Positions 7,632-24,037 of a stretch of DNA of 24,037 bases are shown here, one piece after another. A program made the translations under genes and the position numbers. The number at the start of each line of letters is the position of its first letter. Position 1 is the stretch's first letter. The notes beneath the pieces were generated by a model. It saw nothing but the letters and a program-made list of their open reading frames with translations. It was not told the DNA's origin and did no database searches. Origin of the DNA: a virus. The DNA is taken from the IMG/VR virus record IMGVR_UViG_3300042691_001963, positions 1 to 24,037 of that record. One strand, given 5' to 3'.

Positions 7632-7922
7632 ATGACAGAACAAGAATTTCTCAAGCTGCTGCATGAGGTAGCTAAAAAAGCAAAACCGTTTCACAACGAA
7701 CTAAAACCCATCGACACGATGGAAGTTGTATTCACTGAAGTAGGTCTTGACAGCCTTGACCTTCTTATGTGTACAGTATATCTCTGCGAAGTCTACGACG
7801 TAGAAGACGAGAAGAGTAAAGAGATGCAAGCCACGACTCCACGAGAGTGCTGGGACTTTTTAAATGAACATGGTCGTCGTAAACCTGAATCATTTGAGCA
7901 AGCAGTGGGGTGGATCCTATGA
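7632..7922 (+). CDS. Phage-encoded acyl carrier protein
   Basis: A 96-aa acidic helical protein. The segment FTEVGLDSLDLLMCTVYLCE carries the DSL phosphopantetheine site, with Ser41 as the attachment residue, in the position and hydrophobic setting of bacterial ACPs (compare GADSLDTVELVMALEEEF in E. coli AcpP; family knowledge). The first helix (EQEFLKLLHEVAKKAKPF) and an acidic third region (VYDVEDEKSKEMQATTPREC) fit the four-helix fold. The C-terminus is about 15 residues longer than AcpP. To work it must be loaded by a phosphopantetheinyl transferase, not seen here and presumably from the host. Its stop overlaps the start of the ketosynthase gene (ATGA), which suggests coupled synthesis and use as that enzyme's partner. 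Confidence 0.8.
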   Translation: MTEQEFLKLLHEVAKKAKPFHNELKPIDTMEVVFTEVGLDSLDLLMCTVYLCEVYDVEDEKSKEMQATTPRECWDFLNEHGRRKPESFEQAVGWIL

Positions 7923-9040
7923 GAATCTTCTTGACTGAAAGTCGCACAGCTAGTACGACGCAGACTGAGGTCTACGAAGATCATGGTTTTCCGCAGCGCG
8001 TTCATTGGTTCCCTGATAGCTACGCAAGAGTCAAGACAGGTCTTTTTAATCCTGCTCACGTCGTAGCAGAAAAGGTTCTAGATCCAGATCTCTTGAACCT
8101 TCTTCGCCAGACACAGACTGGCAAGACTGCCTTCATCTTGGCTTCTGGAAACAGTAACTTTGCCAACGAAGGTAGGAAGATGGGCAAAGAGAACAGCATG
8201 ACTTTTAACTACAAGGTCTTGCCGTTGTCATTGACCCAGATCTACGCAGGCCGTGTAGCCTCGCAGTGCGGGGAAATAGATCATACAGCAACTGACGCAA
8301 CCGCGTGCACCTCTAGCCTTAAGGTATTGATGGACGTGCAGACACTGATTAAGTTCTATGGGTTTGACCGCGTGGTTGTTCTTGCAGTAGAAGATCAGGT
8401 CAACAATATGACCCTACAGTTCTTTGGTGAAGCAGGAGCAACTCTTACAGAAAAGATGGCAGCTGAGCATCAGGTGATGCCTTCTGCATTTGATTCCAAG
8501 AATTTTGGCTTCTACATTGGTCAGGGTGCTGCTTTTGCAGTCTTTGAGAGTGAGAAGGCCTTAGAAAAGTCTGGTTTGATACCAAAAGCCGAGCTTCTGG
8601 GGGCTTATACAGCCACGGAGCTTCTGACCAATGCCATCGGGCAACGAGAAGATGGCCAGGGATTTACACGGGCCATAAAAGGCGCGATAGAAATTTGTCA
8701 AATTTTGCCAGAACAAATTAAAATCGTGAAGACACATGGCACTGGAACAAAATCTAATAATGCAGCCGAAAAAGCATGTTTAGATCAGTTGCCTGGCAAG
8801 TTTGTAGCGACATCGTATAAGCAACGAATCGGCCATACGATGGGAGCGAGTGGACTTTTAGAGACCCTCTTGCTGTTCAATGATTTGGGGAAGGGCGCTG
8901 TGCCTGAGATCTTGAATAGGACAGAAGAGGATCATGTATACCTCTCGCATCCGGTTGAAGTTCCTGATGGCATAGTGATGAGCTTGAGTGCTGGTATGGG
9001 CAATGTGTTCAGCGCCGCACTGTTCAACACAAGGATATAG
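7919..9040 (+). CDS. Divergent beta-ketoacyl-ACP synthase (FabF/KS-like)
   Basis: A 373-aa protein. I start at ATG 7919, which overlaps the ACP stop as ATGA; a GTG at 7910 would add three residues. The thiolase-fold catalytic set is present: Cys130 in DATACTSSLKVLMD, His273 in KTHGTGTKSNNAAE, and Lys301/His306 in YKQRIGHTMGASGLLE. This matches KAS-I/II type enzymes (Cys-His-His), which condense malonyl-ACP with an acyl chain, and not KAS-III. Divergent points: the usual VTGxGxVSPxG start is missing, the protein is about 40 residues shorter than FabF, and the C-terminal gating motif GFGGTN reads GMGNVF (Met360). No reductase, dehydratase or acyltransferase of the pathway is in the window, so other steps would come from the host. 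It is embedded between virion genes. Confidence 0.85.
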   Translation: MRIFLTESRTASTTQTEVYEDHGFPQRVHWFPDSYARVKTGLFNPAHVVAEKVLDPDLLNLLRQTQTGKTAFILASGNSNFANEGRKMGKENSMTFNYKVLPLSLTQIYAGRVASQCGEIDHTATDATACTSSLKVLMDVQTLIKFYGFDRVVVLAVEDQVNNMTLQFFGEAGATLTEKMAAEHQVMPSAFDSKNFGFYIGQGAAFAVFESEKALEKSGLIPKAELLGAYTATELLTNAIGQREDGQGFTRAIKGAIEICQILPEQIKIVKTHGTGTKSNNAAEKACLDQLPGKFVATSYKQRIGHTMGASGLLETLLLFNDLGKGAVPEILNRTEEDHVYLSHPVEVPDGIVMSLSAGMGNVFSAALFNTRI

Positions 9041-20397: not shown

Positions 20398-20674
20398 AGG
20401 ATTCTAGAAGCCTTAAAAGAGTGGATTGATCCAGTCCTTTATTGTCTCGCGTGGACTAGAGGACGAGCGAACGAGTCAAATATAGGTGTTAAATGACTAA
20501 ATCCAGCCTGTTATGGCTCTAGAATTGATCTATAGCGTTTTTGGCCGGATAGCTAGTAAATGTCCCAGCATAAAAATATTTTAAAAAAGTCGCGCGCCAC
20601 GTGATTTTCCACTGTAGAATCTACCCATGCACAGCAATTCTGCTTGCATAAACAGAAAGAAGAAAGGATTCACC
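20398..20674 (+). promoter_or_regulatory. Intergenic control region between virion and nucleotide/replication genes
   Basis: About 277 bases without a convincing gene, the only real gap in the window. It is AT-richer than its flanks and stop-rich. It contains a short TGGA-TTGA-TCCA hairpin followed by CCTTTATT (20422-20441), a GCGCGC run next to CACGTG (20598-20603), and TAGAAT at 20615-20620, which could act as a -10 box, although no good -35 stands 16-18 bases upstream. A promoter for the downstream DUF932 gene and an end to the virion operon are both expected here. I can only mark candidates. No tRNA cloverleaf was seen. Confidence 0.4.
20663..20668 (+). promoter_or_regulatory. Ribosome binding site deciding the DUF932 start
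   Basis: AAAGGA, six bases before ATG 20675. No such site stands before the upstream in-frame ATG at 20627, so the shorter protein beginning MSHEVETMAYAN is favoured. Confidence 0.7.
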
Positions 20675-21661
20675 ATGTCACATGAAGTAGAAACGATGGC
20701 TTACGCCAATGAGACCCCTTGGCACGGCCTTGGTACCCCTGTCGCCGATACTTTGACCCCTGTCGAGATGCTGCAAGCAGCTGGCCTTGATTGGAAGGTT
20801 GAAAAGAAGGCGTTATTTGTCGATGATCTAGACACACAGATCAACAGCCACTATGCACTAGTGCGCAATACCGACAGTCGCATTCTTGGCATCTGCGGCA
20901 ACGAATATTCCCCAACACAGAACGAAGAGGTTTTTGACTTCTTTAGCAAGTTCTGTAAAGCTGGCGACATGAAGATGGAAACAGCTGGCAGTTTACACGG
21001 TGGAAAACGCGTTTGGGGTCTTGCAAAGATCAATGGCGGCTTTATGTTGGGCGGCAAAGATGAAGTCGAAGGCTACATCTTGCTTGACAACCCACACATC
21101 AGGGGTCGCAGCCTACAGATCATGTTCACACCTATTCGCGTGGTCTGCAACAACACCTTGACTCAAGCTCTACGTGGTAATACCCACAAGGATGCAACTT
21201 TCCGCATGTCTCATGATCGCGCCTTCAGTGACGAGATCAAGCAAGAGGCTGCAGAAAAAGTTGGCTTGGCAATGAAAGCCCTTGACGTATTCAAAGATCG
21301 TGCCGAATTCTTGTCTAAGAAGCGCGCAAAAGATCAAAAGGTCATGGAGTTTTTCAGCAAGCTAGTTAATCCTGATCTCTATCAAACTGCTCAAGAGCAG
21401 AGTGAAGACGGTATCGTTAACCGCTCTGATCTTGGCCGCACTGTTAACCGTTTGATTGACATTGTTCACACTCAACCAGGTGCTGATCTGAAGACTTCAG
21501 CAGGTACTTGGTGGGGCGCGTTCAACGCAGTGACGTATTACTACGATCACGTCGCAGGCACTGATCAAGACAAGCGATTGACATCTGCTTGGTTTGGTTC
21601 AGCAGCAACACGCAAACGCCAGGCACTTGACTTAGCCGTCGAGTTCGCTGAAGCAGCGTAA
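20675..21661 (+). CDS. DUF932 phage/plasmid-like protein
   Basis: A 328-aa protein beginning MSHEVETMAYANETPWHGLG, then TLTPVEMLQAAGLDWKVEKK, YALVRNTDSRILGICGNEYS, NEEVFDFFSKFC, GGKRVWGLAKING, YILLDNPH, RSLQIMFTPIRVVCNNTLTQ and, near the end, GTWWGAFNAVTYYYDHVAGT. This is the full pattern of the DUF932 family (phage/plasmid-like protein), widespread in phages and plasmids; its biochemical role is not established as far as I know. Length is normal for the family. The upstream ATG at 20627 would add 16 residues without family support. A strong hairpin follows its stop within six bases. Confidence 0.88.
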   Translation: MSHEVETMAYANETPWHGLGTPVADTLTPVEMLQAAGLDWKVEKKALFVDDLDTQINSHYALVRNTDSRILGICGNEYSPTQNEEVFDFFSKFCKAGDMKMETAGSLHGGKRVWGLAKINGGFMLGGKDEVEGYILLDNPHIRGRSLQIMFTPIRVVCNNTLTQALRGNTHKDATFRMSHDRAFSDEIKQEAAEKVGLAMKALDVFKDRAEFLSKKRAKDQKVMEFFSKLVNPDLYQTAQEQSEDGIVNRSDLGRTVNRLIDIVHTQPGADLKTSAGTWWGAFNAVTYYYDHVAGTDQDKRLTSAWFGSAATRKRQALDLAVEFAEAA

Positions 21662-21714: not shown

Positions 21715-22566
21715 ATGGCAAATGCCAGAGGAAAAGCAATTGACAATACCCATCTCAGTATCGATCAGGCCGAAGAGCGCGGCTTCATCCACCGAGACTA
21801 CATCGCCCACTGCCTACGATGGACCCACGTGGCCAAGTACATGGGCAAACCAGATCACCGCAAGGATTGCAAGCTGCTAGACATTGGCTGCGGCAAAGAC
21901 GTGCCGTTGGCTCGTATGCTGATGACCAGTCGCATGGCTTCAGATGGTCTTGAGTATGTCGGCATTGACTACAACGCATTGGAGATGCCTTCAATGTTCA
22001 CGAATACCAAATTCAAGCCTACTCTGATCGGCAAGGTAGCATTCCCAGATGTTCAGTTACCGCATGAAAAGTATGACGTGATCACAAGCTTTGAAGTGCT
22101 TGAGCACGTAGAACCAGTCCACGCCTTAAAGATGCTGCAAGGTATGAACAAGATCTTGGCCGATGACGGAGTTGTGTTTATCTCAACACCAGTTTACGAC
22201 GAGAAGGTAGGAGCAGCAGATAACCACGTGAATGAGATGACTTACGAGACCATGCAAGCAATGATTGCGCATGCTGGCTTTGAGATCGACGATCATTTCG
22301 GCACATTTGCATCAATCAAAGATTACAAGGAAGTCCTTGAAAAAGAAGACATCGATGGAGTGTTCAATCGTCTCCGTGCTTACTACGACAGCAACTATCT
22401 GGCAACTATCTTTGCCCCGCTCTATCCACGCCATTCGCGTAACGTGCTGTGGAGACTTAAGAAGTCTGCTAGCAAGGACGTGCTCTTACCGAAATTCAAA
22501 GAACTGCCCCAGCCGCTGTCAAGCAGTAATGAGTGGCAGCCTCTCTTTGATCACGTTGGAGAATAA
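21715..22566 (+). CDS. Class I SAM-dependent methyltransferase
   Basis: A 283-aa protein, ATG 21715 behind AGGAG (21703-21707). Motif I is KLLDIGCGKD (about 53-62), motif II YVGIDYN (81-87), and the motif IV region YDVITSFEVLEHVEP (120-134) is followed by MNKILADDGVVFISTPVYDE (144-163). These are clear Rossmann-fold methyltransferase signatures of the Methyltransf_11/UbiG-like type. The DPPY/NPPY motif of amino-group DNA methyltransferases and the PC motif of cytosine-5 enzymes are absent, so a standard restriction-type DNA methylase is unlikely. The residue HVN after the Rossmann core (KVGAADNHVNEMTYETMQAM) resembles small-molecule or sugar methyltransferases. Target unknown; the neighbours point to nucleotide metabolism. 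Confidence 0.8.
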   Translation: MANARGKAIDNTHLSIDQAEERGFIHRDYIAHCLRWTHVAKYMGKPDHRKDCKLLDIGCGKDVPLARMLMTSRMASDGLEYVGIDYNALEMPSMFTNTKFKPTLIGKVAFPDVQLPHEKYDVITSFEVLEHVEPVHALKMLQGMNKILADDGVVFISTPVYDEKVGAADNHVNEMTYETMQAMIAHAGFEIDDHFGTFASIKDYKEVLEKEDIDGVFNRLRAYYDSNYLATIFAPLYPRHSRNVLWRLKKSASKDVLLPKFKELPQPLSSSNEWQPLFDHVGE

Positions 22567-22568
22567 TC

Positions 22569-22961
22569 ATGTCTAATATGTTTGACGATGTTGCAGCCTT
22601 TCATAAGCGGTTTGGCTTAGAACCTACTCAGCAGCCTGATTTTCCAGATCAGCACATCTGGATGCTCAAGAATATTCACATGCAAGAAGAGCTCAATGAG
22701 ATTCGCGCTGCTTGCTTGACAGGAGATCTTGAGCAGTATTTTGACGGTATCATTGACCTTGTCTACGTAGCTCTTGGTGCTGCTTATCTTGCTGGCTTAC
22801 CTTTTGAAGAAGGCTTCAAGCGTGTTCACGAAGCTAACATGAAAAAAGTTAGAGCAACAACTGCAGAAGAGAGCAAAAGAGGATCTACCTATGATATAGT
22901 TAAACCTGCAGGTTGGGTGGCTCCCACTTTAGAAGATCTGCTTAGAAAGGAGAAAGCATGA
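22569..22961 (+). CDS. MazG/PRA-PH-like nucleotide pyrophosphohydrolase
   Basis: A 130-aa protein, ATG 22569 behind GGAG. It reads FDDVAAFHKRFGLEPTQQPD, then HMQEELNEIRAA and YFDGIIDLVYVALGAAYLAG, ending with VHEANMKKVRA. This is the all-alpha NTP pyrophosphohydrolase pattern with the metal-binding acids Glu40, Glu41, Glu44, Asp59 and Asp63. Phage members of this group are thought to hydrolyse (d)NTPs to monophosphates, either cleaning the pool of an unwanted nucleotide or lowering ppGpp; the substrate here is not determined. The gene overlaps the start of the kinase gene (ATGA), consistent with a joint role in dNTP handling. Confidence 0.78.
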   Translation: MSNMFDDVAAFHKRFGLEPTQQPDFPDQHIWMLKNIHMQEELNEIRAACLTGDLEQYFDGIIDLVYVALGAAYLAGLPFEEGFKRVHEANMKKVRATTAEESKRGSTYDIVKPAGWVAPTLEDLLRKEKA

Positions 22962-23953
22962 AAGGATTGATCATCGTTGACGGTTGCGATGGCACAGGCA
23001 AGACAACTCTTGCTAAAGCTATTTGCGAACGCTTCAACGGCATCTACATGCACAACACTTACAGATGGCCTACCAAGATGCCTCTGTATCACACAGCTGC
23101 CTTGCATCGCGCATTGAAGCTGGCTAAGACACGCTTGGTCGTTATTGATCGTCTATGGATGAGCGAAGCGATCTATGCAGAAGTGTATCGTGGAGGTAGT
23201 TCTTGGCCCCACATGGGCCGGATGATCGATCGCATTGTTCGTAAACATGCTGGCTTGTATATCTTGACCTTATCTCCTGAAGGCCATAAGGAACGTTTTG
23301 ACAAATTAAAGACAGAGCGTGAAGAGATGTATGACAACGTTGAAGCAGTACGTATCCGTTATGACGAGCTCTTTCATGGTGGCTTTGCTATGCATGATCG
23401 TGACTATGCGCAGCAATTGTCTGTACATGGTATGAAAGACAGGCATGATGTACTTGGCTATAGACTTGATGTCGAAGGCACTGACATACCTCAATTCTTG
23501 TCATTCGTTGAAGCTGCTTTGATGGAGCGTCAGATGAGTCAGTATGAACCTGCTTTGCACTTGCATACGAAAAACTTTGCAGGTCATTTAGGCGATGCTG
23601 ATACCATCATTGTCGGTGATCAAACAAACAGCAAGATGCGAGCCCTTGAGTGGCCTTGGTATGACATTGGTAACAGCAGCTTGTTCCTATCAGAGTGCTT
23701 GCATGATCTGCATTTTGATGAGACACGAGCAGTCTATATCAATGCCAATTCTGGCAATGGCGGCTTGTACATCGGCGATTGCTTACGTCATAGCCCATAT
23801 ATGAAGCTTGTTGTTCTTGGCCAATTGGCCTTTGACACTGTCAAGCACTTACGTATGGATCGCACCGCTGTTCGCTGCATGCACCCATCTGCAGCAAAGC
23901 GTTTTAACAAGCGTGATGAATTCATGCAAGAACTTAAAGGAGCCTTGAAATAA
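22958..23953 (+). CDS. Thymidylate-kinase-like protein fused to a UDG-superfamily-like domain
   Basis: A 331-aa protein, ATG 22958 behind AAAGGAG and overlapping the previous stop. Residues 1-190 form a P-loop kinase: GLIIVDGCDGTGKTT with the Walker A motif at 9-16, then VVIDRLWMSEAIYAEVY with the DRxxxS element (64-69), as in thymidylate/dNMP kinases. Residues about 213-331 form a second domain: ADTIIVGDQTN, NSSLFLSECLHDLHFDETRA, VYINAN, KLVVLGQLAFDTVKHL and CMHPSAAKRF. This follows the order of family 4/5 uracil-DNA glycosylases (GEAPG; GxxGxxLxxLLxxxGxxRxxVYITN; ALGxxA; HPS), but the first motif reads GDQTN, so standard glycosylase activity is doubtful. It may phosphorylate or sense a modified pyrimidine nucleotide. 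Confidence 0.72.
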   Translation: MKGLIIVDGCDGTGKTTLAKAICERFNGIYMHNTYRWPTKMPLYHTAALHRALKLAKTRLVVIDRLWMSEAIYAEVYRGGSSWPHMGRMIDRIVRKHAGLYILTLSPEGHKERFDKLKTEREEMYDNVEAVRIRYDELFHGGFAMHDRDYAQQLSVHGMKDRHDVLGYRLDVEGTDIPQFLSFVEAALMERQMSQYEPALHLHTKNFAGHLGDADTIIVGDQTNSKMRALEWPWYDIGNSSLFLSECLHDLHFDETRAVYINANSGNGGLYIGDCLRHSPYMKLVVLGQLAFDTVKHLRMDRTAVRCMHPSAAKRFNKRDEFMQELKGALK

Positions 23954-24037
23954 TGAATACAACTAACATCAACTGGCAAGGCTTGCTTCACATCATCATG
24001 AAGCACGGTCAGCAAGCTAATCCAAGAGGTCAGAAGA
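23953..24037 (+). CDS. Start of probable thymidylate synthase / pyrimidine hydroxymethylase (cut by right edge)
   Basis: ATG 23953 overlaps the TAA of the kinase gene; 28 codons are visible before the window ends. The product reads NINWQGLLHIIMKHGQQANP followed by RGQK. The W..LL..I...G....PRG.K pattern is the usual N-terminus of phage thymidylate synthase family proteins, which methylate or hydroxymethylate dUMP/dCMP. Fewer than 30 residues are available, so the call leans on a short motif and on its place after a dNMP-kinase-like gene. The AAAGGAG stretch at 23936-23942 serves as the ribosome site. Confidence 0.5.
   Translation, partial: MNTTNINWQGLLHIIMKHGQQANPRGQK

Follow-up and report, generated by a model that had tools for sequence, protein, structure and literature searches.

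The DNA analysed in the current study (the window) is a stretch of 24,037 nucleotides, positions 1 to 24,037 of the IMG/VR virus record IMGVR_UViG_3300042691_001963. On its plus strand, positions 22958-23953 encode a protein of 331 residues (ATG to TAA) comprised of an N-terminal thymidylate-kinase-like domain and a C-terminal domain assigned below to the uracil-DNA glycosylase (UDG) superfamily. The kinase domain (residues 1-200, 22958-23557, +) is matched by Pfam Thymidylate_kin (32.4 bits against a cut-off of 27) and by the thymidylate kinase family PHROG 761 (8.2e-13), and its nearest solved structure is YorR (2axp/3kb2). A P-loop, GCDGTGKTT (residues 9-17, 22982-23008, +), has G9, D11, G12, G14, K15 and T17 invariant among the homologues. 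It is accompanied by an equally invariant DR motif (D64-R65, 23147-23152, +), which we take, from knowledge of the family, to be the acceptor-phosphate motif of thymidylate kinases. Across 39 nonredundant fusion sequences both the P-loop pattern GxxGxGKT and the DR motif are invariant.

The fusion gene is preceded by a gene for a Class I SAM methyltransferase (21715-22566, +), which is the conserved first gene of the cluster, and by a gene for a MazG-like NTP pyrophosphohydrolase of the PRA-PH fold (22569-22961, +), which overlaps the fusion gene by 4 nt. Its stop codon overlaps by 1 nt the start codon of a pyrimidine hydroxymethylase gene (TAATG, 23951-23955). This gene is truncated by the end of the window after 28 codons (23953-24037, +), whose translation, MNTTNINWQGLLHIIMKHGQQANPRGQK, matches the N-terminus of the hydroxymethylase of a related locus, L009. 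The order in most loci is methyltransferase, MazG-like pyrophosphatase, kinase with UDG domain, thymidylate synthase (TS)-like enzyme, dCMP deaminase and family-A DNA polymerase.

A number of further genes have been noted in the window and in the related loci. A DUF932 protein (154 bits) is encoded at 20627-21661 (+) of the window, and 39 loci have a member of this family upstream of the cluster. Four loci, including L070, L073 and L074, have in the cluster a protein of about 450 residues (family f25) that by eye resembles C5 cytosine DNA methyltransferases, and in the three named loci it stands upstream of the kinase. In L031 and L033 an amidoligase-looking protein (family f29, by eye) replaces the dCMP deaminase and the DNA polymerase downstream of the hydroxymethylase. 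The window also encodes a beta-ketoacyl synthase (7910-9040, +; PF02801 54.4 bits, PF00109 34.0 bits), the gene of which is overlapped by that of a small protein (7632-7922, +) with an acyl-carrier-protein-like GLDSLDLL motif and no Pfam match. These two genes of fatty-acid or polyketide type sit among phage structural genes, which is an unusual place for them.

A sequence-only reading of this DNA had proposed that a dNMP-kinase-like domain is fused here to a UDG-superfamily-like domain, in which the motifs VYIN, VVLG and HPS follow each other in the order known from family 4/5 UDGs and GDQTN stands in place of the usual motif A. The open reading frame, the Pfam match of the kinase and the family-level matches to UDGs bear this out, and all the motifs have been located in the fusion protein (GDQTN 220-224, VYIN 259-262, VVLG 285-288, HPS 309-311). 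The C-terminus of the window protein searched alone has no match in Pfam or PHROGs; the assignment of this region (residues 209-331, 23582-23950, +) to the UDG superfamily is made because its homologues match UDGs. A profile of 25 homologous C-termini compared with PDB has uracil-DNA glycosylase chains as all of its top 28 matches, which are individually weak (E 0.03-0.55) and unanimous; motif A, the Asn and HPS fall into register in them. Nine of the 25 C-termini are matched by Pfam UDG (best 2.2e-5). The C-terminal domains of gp315 of Bacillus phage G (48.2 bits, 1.5e-12) and of the locus L089 (51.0 bits, 2.1e-13) are over the cut-off of the Pfam family, and hhalign relates the C-terminal family of the window to the UDG domains of these two with a probability of 97.2 and an E-value of 4.6e-11. 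The structure prediction suggested in that reading agrees: the AlphaFold2 model of the fusion protein (pLDDT 91.7, pTM 0.91) resembles UdgX and family-4 UDGs as well as kinases in PDB, with UdgX ranked first and the kinase YorR second by Foldseek. A full-length relative at 65% identity and phage G gp315 are both contained in BFVD. The C-terminal part of the fusion is thus almost certainly a UDG-superfamily domain.

The same fusion has been sought in other phages, and scans of IMG/VR have revealed about 60 full-length fusions in viral contigs. Stenotrophomonas phage AXL3, Pseudoxanthomonas phage PW916, phage DSL-LC01 and Bacillus phage G also encode it in full length, as does the public phage record MW202621. 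A frame or assembly error, which the sequence-only reading had considered, is excluded as their origin, because several phage isolates and dozens of contigs assembled from separate samples have the fusion in full length. AXL3-type fusions with a cytosine-type hydroxymethylase are also found in three contigs binned with bacterial genomes of Chromatiales, Lentisphaera and Gallionella (L098, L099 and L100), which are probably phage or prophage.

A kinase with no UDG domain directly precedes a cytosine-type hydroxymethylase in L057, L059, L062 and pelagiphage HTVC200P, and in L049, L050, L053 and L076 the pocket of the UDG domain is decayed. Fused, decayed and unfused members are intermixed in the kinase tree with 13 label changes; the deep branches of this tree are weak, and the fused and unfused labels cluster no more than in many shuffles. 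A single gain of the UDG domain along the tree was considered and set aside, repeated loss being a better fit to the scattered labels. The UDG domain is apparently an add-on that has been lost repeatedly and, as unfused and decayed kinases persist in the same cluster, the phosphorylation seems to be independent of it. Nothing observed supports the earlier suggestion of a kinase working on bases in DNA; the DR motif, which is that of dNMP kinases, and the presence of a UDG-less kinase in the same operon slot elsewhere fit a free-nucleotide kinase better.

The pocket of the family-4 enzyme Thermus UDGa is made up of E41, G42, E47, F54, N80 and H155, among which Phe54 is the base-stacking residue (PMC5387724), and the motif B residue of UdgX is R184 (PMC10359453). 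The equivalent places were counted over the 39 nonredundant fusions. That of F54 holds Phe or Trp in 37 of 39; it is W234 in the window protein, in the pair P233-W234 (23654-23659, +) that is PF in most members, and the spacing of this pair from motif A (13) is identical to that in Thermus UDGa. Asn is conserved at the place of the base-reading N80 in 35 (N262, 23741-23743, +), His at that of the catalytic H155 in 33 (H309) and Arg at that of UdgX R184 in 33 (R315). H309 and R315 belong to motif B, HPSAAKRF (residues 309-316, 23882-23905, +), whose P310 is present in 39 of 39. Asp or Glu is found at the place of E41 in 35 of 39 (residue 221 in the window protein).

Motif A has been rewritten. 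Most fusions have G[D/E]xxNxK, not the GE[A/G]PG of family 4, and in the window protein GDQTNSK (residues 220-226, 23615-23635, +) replaces GE[A/G]PGxx. The place of G42 holds K, Q, R or other residues instead of Gly, and that of E47 is variable (M227 in the window protein). A conserved Cys column for the four-cysteine Fe-S cluster of family 4 is absent from the alignment of C-terminal domains, and neither the window protein nor its relatives have the KRRIH R-loop of UdgX with its nucleophilic His or the UdgX motif A GEQPG. Phage G and L089 have stayed closer to the canonical motif, with NPG, and may have an equivalent of Asn89. Changes at E41, G42 and E47 strongly cut the activity of Thermus UDGa, the loss being about 100-fold in the G42 and E47 mutants (PMC5387724). 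By analogy with these mutants, strong uracil excision would have been lost in the fusions.

Among 21 sequences less than 50% identical, the pocket columns, a set picked from the UDG literature and not from the alignment, exceed each of 20,000 random column sets in conservation. In the same sequences the co-occurrence of pocket residue losses was matched by 0 of 20,000 shuffles, which ignore relatedness, and the residues are lost together in the decayed copies of the domain. Since the columns are strongly conserved and their losses co-occur, the pocket appears to operate as a unit in most members, with the part beside C5 and the attacking water probably rewritten.

The base served by the cluster is indicated by the neighbour of the kinase, which public records call a thymidylate synthase or a dUMP hydroxymethylase. 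When aligned with controls, the neighbours have Asp at the place of T4 Asp179, as has the dCMP hydroxymethylase gp42 of T4, and Asn is found there in SPO1-type gp29, the Ackermannviridae enzyme, the Pseudomonas Abidjanvirus enzyme (Lucjan) and T4-type td. In a motif survey of 61 neighbours this Asp is present in 55 of the 55 in which the motif was located; in the other six the pattern landed on a wrong site, and they are excluded from the evidence. An Asp three residues before the catalytic Cys is a signature of hydroxymethylases (PMC6400193) and is found (T4 Asp145) in 60 of the 61 neighbours. As dUMP hydroxymethylases, which have one Asp and one Asn, share this signature residue, it is the pair of Asp residues and not the single one that points to a dCMP hydroxymethylase. 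The best PDB match of the TS-like neighbour is the CMP hydroxymethylase MilA (1e-22, versus 4e-13 for TS). The Ser94 signature of T4 is not kept in the neighbours, which have Gly, and it is missing from the SPO1-type enzyme as well. For the window, whose own hydroxymethylase ends after 28 codons, the Asp residues are read from relatives, the nearest being L009, with a fusion protein 82% identical.

These comparisons suggest that the cluster probably encodes a pathway of 5-hydroxymethyl-cytosine (5hmC) type, and it is likely that the kinase serves a pathway of C5-modified dCMP. A dUMP hydroxymethylase with thymidine hypermodification was rejected on the Asp/Asn position. The hypermodified-thymidine chemistry proposed in the sequence-only reading is thus probably wrong, since the hydroxymethylase of the relatives has both the cytosine-specifying and the hydroxymethylase Asp. 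Its other idea, that a base-reading pocket could tell a modified pyrimidine apart, agrees with the conservation of the pocket. In the T4 relative Serratia phage CHI14 (L092, 895-3040) an unfused thymidylate-kinase-like gene lies near a TS-like gene with Asp at seemingly the same place, with a 303-residue protein that has no Pfam match nearby. This region adjoins uvsX, the place of beta-gt and gene 42 in T4.

Of 37 restriction enzymes, TasI (AATT) and Tru1I (TTAA) alone cut the DNA of AXL3; the 35 that it resists include enzymes with T-free sites such as MspI, HaeIII and SmaI (PMC7504290). The glucosyl-5hmC DNA of T4 withstands 94% of enzymes, and MluCI (AATT) and MseI (TTAA) digest it to completion (PMC7653180). 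The pattern of AXL3 fits a modified cytosine. Eam1105I is an isoschizomer of AhdI. Simple 5-methyl-cytosine of the Xp12 type is disfavoured for AXL3, the DNA of which is uncut by KpnI and Eam1105I (PMC7504290), whereas KpnI and AhdI cut Xp12 DNA (PMC7653180). Phage G encodes a DNA alpha-glucosyltransferase (PF11440) two genes away from its fusion gene, and none was found in the records of the other phages.

The following scheme is suggested for the cluster. The MazG-like pyrophosphatase would return dCTP to dCMP, the TS-family enzyme, to judge from its relatives, very probably makes 5hm-dCMP as a dCMP hydroxymethylase, and the kinase domain would phosphorylate 5hm-dCMP toward 5hm-dCTP, as its fold and operon position indicate. 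The C-terminal domain appears to keep the aromatic stacker, the Asn for the Watson-Crick edge and the His and Arg of motif B, and to have given up the usual motif A and the C5-adjacent residue; it most likely binds a C5-modified pyrimidine, as nucleotide or in DNA, with no efficient excision. Such a reader may favour the modified substrate, or may hold the kinase near the DNA under copying. We consider it an even chance that the fusion as a whole is a kinase of 5-hydroxymethyl-dCMP, or of another C5-modified dCMP, with a UDG-derived base reader. For the C-terminal domain taken by itself, a base-specific, non-excising reader is slightly favoured; conservation argues for a functional pocket, and the ligand and the loss of excision are deduced. 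The retention of the His and Asn of active UDGs, together with the aromatic residue and the Asp/Glu, counts against a reader that does not excise. The more specific proposal is a tentative one: the domain would recognise 5hmC, either in newly made DNA or as the free nucleotide, and by gating the kinase would keep unmodified nucleotide out of the DNA. UDG-superfamily pockets can be adapted to modified cytosine, as seen in Brig1, which excises alpha-glucosyl-5hmC (PMC11078745). The reading Asn of the fusions, at a place where Brig1 has Glu, is a residue of uracil type and counts against a modified-cytosine reader.

The main rival is a working glycosylase, which would clear the phage DNA of uracil, or of a wrong or deaminated base such as hmU, and whose fusion to the kinase would reflect the dCMP/dUMP pathway that both serve. 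The conservation of His309, Asn262, the aromatic residue 234, Arg315 and Asp/Glu 221, the more canonical motifs of phage G and L089 and the production of dUMP by the dCMP deaminase of the cluster all agree with it. The rewritten motif A and the loss of E47 in the group of the window protein, at places where changes strongly reduce the activity of Thermus UDGa (PMC5387724), and the want of conserved cysteines for the family-4 Fe-S cluster do not. A second UDG gene is absent from all the 43 records, fused or unfused, as judged by the Pfam model, which misses most of the diverged fused domains too. This absence is in favour of a working glycosylase, and the failure to find a replacement in the unfused phages is against it. 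A separate UDG gene replacing the lost domain was looked for with this same model and none was found. On balance we regard a working glycosylase as unlikely.

Less probable still is a docking module with no base specificity, namely a retired glycosylase whose only task would be to anchor the kinase at the replisome or on the hydroxymethylase. In its favour, several members have kept the kinase while the domain has decayed or is gone, and jumbo phages such as PaBG have a UDG domain on their DNA polymerase I (PMC7412058). Against it, the pocket ranks with the best-conserved positions of the domain, and its residues vanish together upon decay. The current annotation, an ordinary thymidylate kinase beside a thymidylate synthase with an irrelevant C-terminal extension, is improbable. 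It has the database names and the Pfam Thymidylate_kin match on its side, but the supposed synthase carries the residues typical of cytosine specificity and of hydroxymethylases, the extension belongs to the UDG superfamily and is conserved, and a thymidylate synthase complementing protein is among the other products of AXL3 (PMC7504290). A kinase that phosphorylates 5-hydroxymethyl-uracil in DNA after the UDG domain has flipped the base is very improbable: 5hmdU DNA kinases do act on bases in DNA (PMC6449724, PMC7653180) and could well make use of a domain that flips the base, but the adjoining hydroxymethylase is of cytosine type, the resistance of AXL3 at T-free sites is not readily explained by thymine modification, and no other thymidine-hypermodification genes have been recognised near the gene.

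Returning to the C5-modified dCMP kinase with a base reader, the same two-domain architecture near a cytosine-type hydroxymethylase and a dCMP deaminase is present in phage G gp315, AXL3 gp29 and the 'thymidylate kinase' of DSL-LC01, which are annotated only as thymidylate kinases and for which reports of activity were not found. Phage G differs in its more canonical UDG motif A (QNPGG) and in the alpha-glucosyltransferases nearby. With family-4 UDGs (Thermus UDGa, TM0511) and UdgX the C-terminal domain shares the fold, the order and spacing of motifs, the aromatic/Asn/His pocket and the motif-B Arg; it differs from them in the G[D/E]xxNxK motif A, the lost E47, the lack of conserved Fe-S cysteines and of a visible KRRIH loop, its shorter length and its junction to a kinase. 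The predicted set of steps is the same as that of the 5hmC pathway of T4 (gp1 dNMP kinase, gp42 dCMP hydroxymethylase, gp56 dCTPase, cd dCMP deaminase). Unlike in T4, the genes form a compact co-oriented operon and the kinase bears a UDG domain. Presumably the kinase and the pyrophosphatase of the cluster do not belong to the T4 kinase or dCTPase families, to which they are not recognisably related.

The anti-phage glycosylases Brig1 and Brig3 are also UDG-related and adapted to 5hmC or glucosyl-5hmC; they are base-excising enzymes of bacterial defence, whereas the domain described here belongs to a phage, is carried by a biosynthetic kinase and is probably non-excising. The 5hmdU DNA kinase of phages M6 and ViI is likewise a phage kinase acting after a hydroxymethylated pyrimidine has been made, but it works on uracil-type bases in DNA and the present cluster is of cytosine type. 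To our knowledge no non-excising UDG-superfamily reader inside a phage DNA-modification pathway has been known earlier, and the present domain, if it is one, would be the first. In PaBG-type jumbo phages the UDG fold is likewise appended to an enzyme of DNA synthesis, which is DNA polymerase I and not a nucleotide kinase. UDG domains on phage DNA polymerase I are thus already known (PMC7412058), and none of the papers retrieved by full-text searches for the kinase fusion or its pathway describes this fusion.

A widespread cluster labelled as thymidylate kinase and thymidylate synthase thus probably serves to make 5-hydroxymethyl-cytosine in small phages that are remote from T4. Such a pathway would explain the restriction-resistant DNA of AXL3, which had been left open (PMC7504290). 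The fusion is a natural case of a DNA-repair glycosylase fold joined to nucleotide synthesis, and it mirrors the Brig glycosylases of bacteria, which attack the same kind of modified base.
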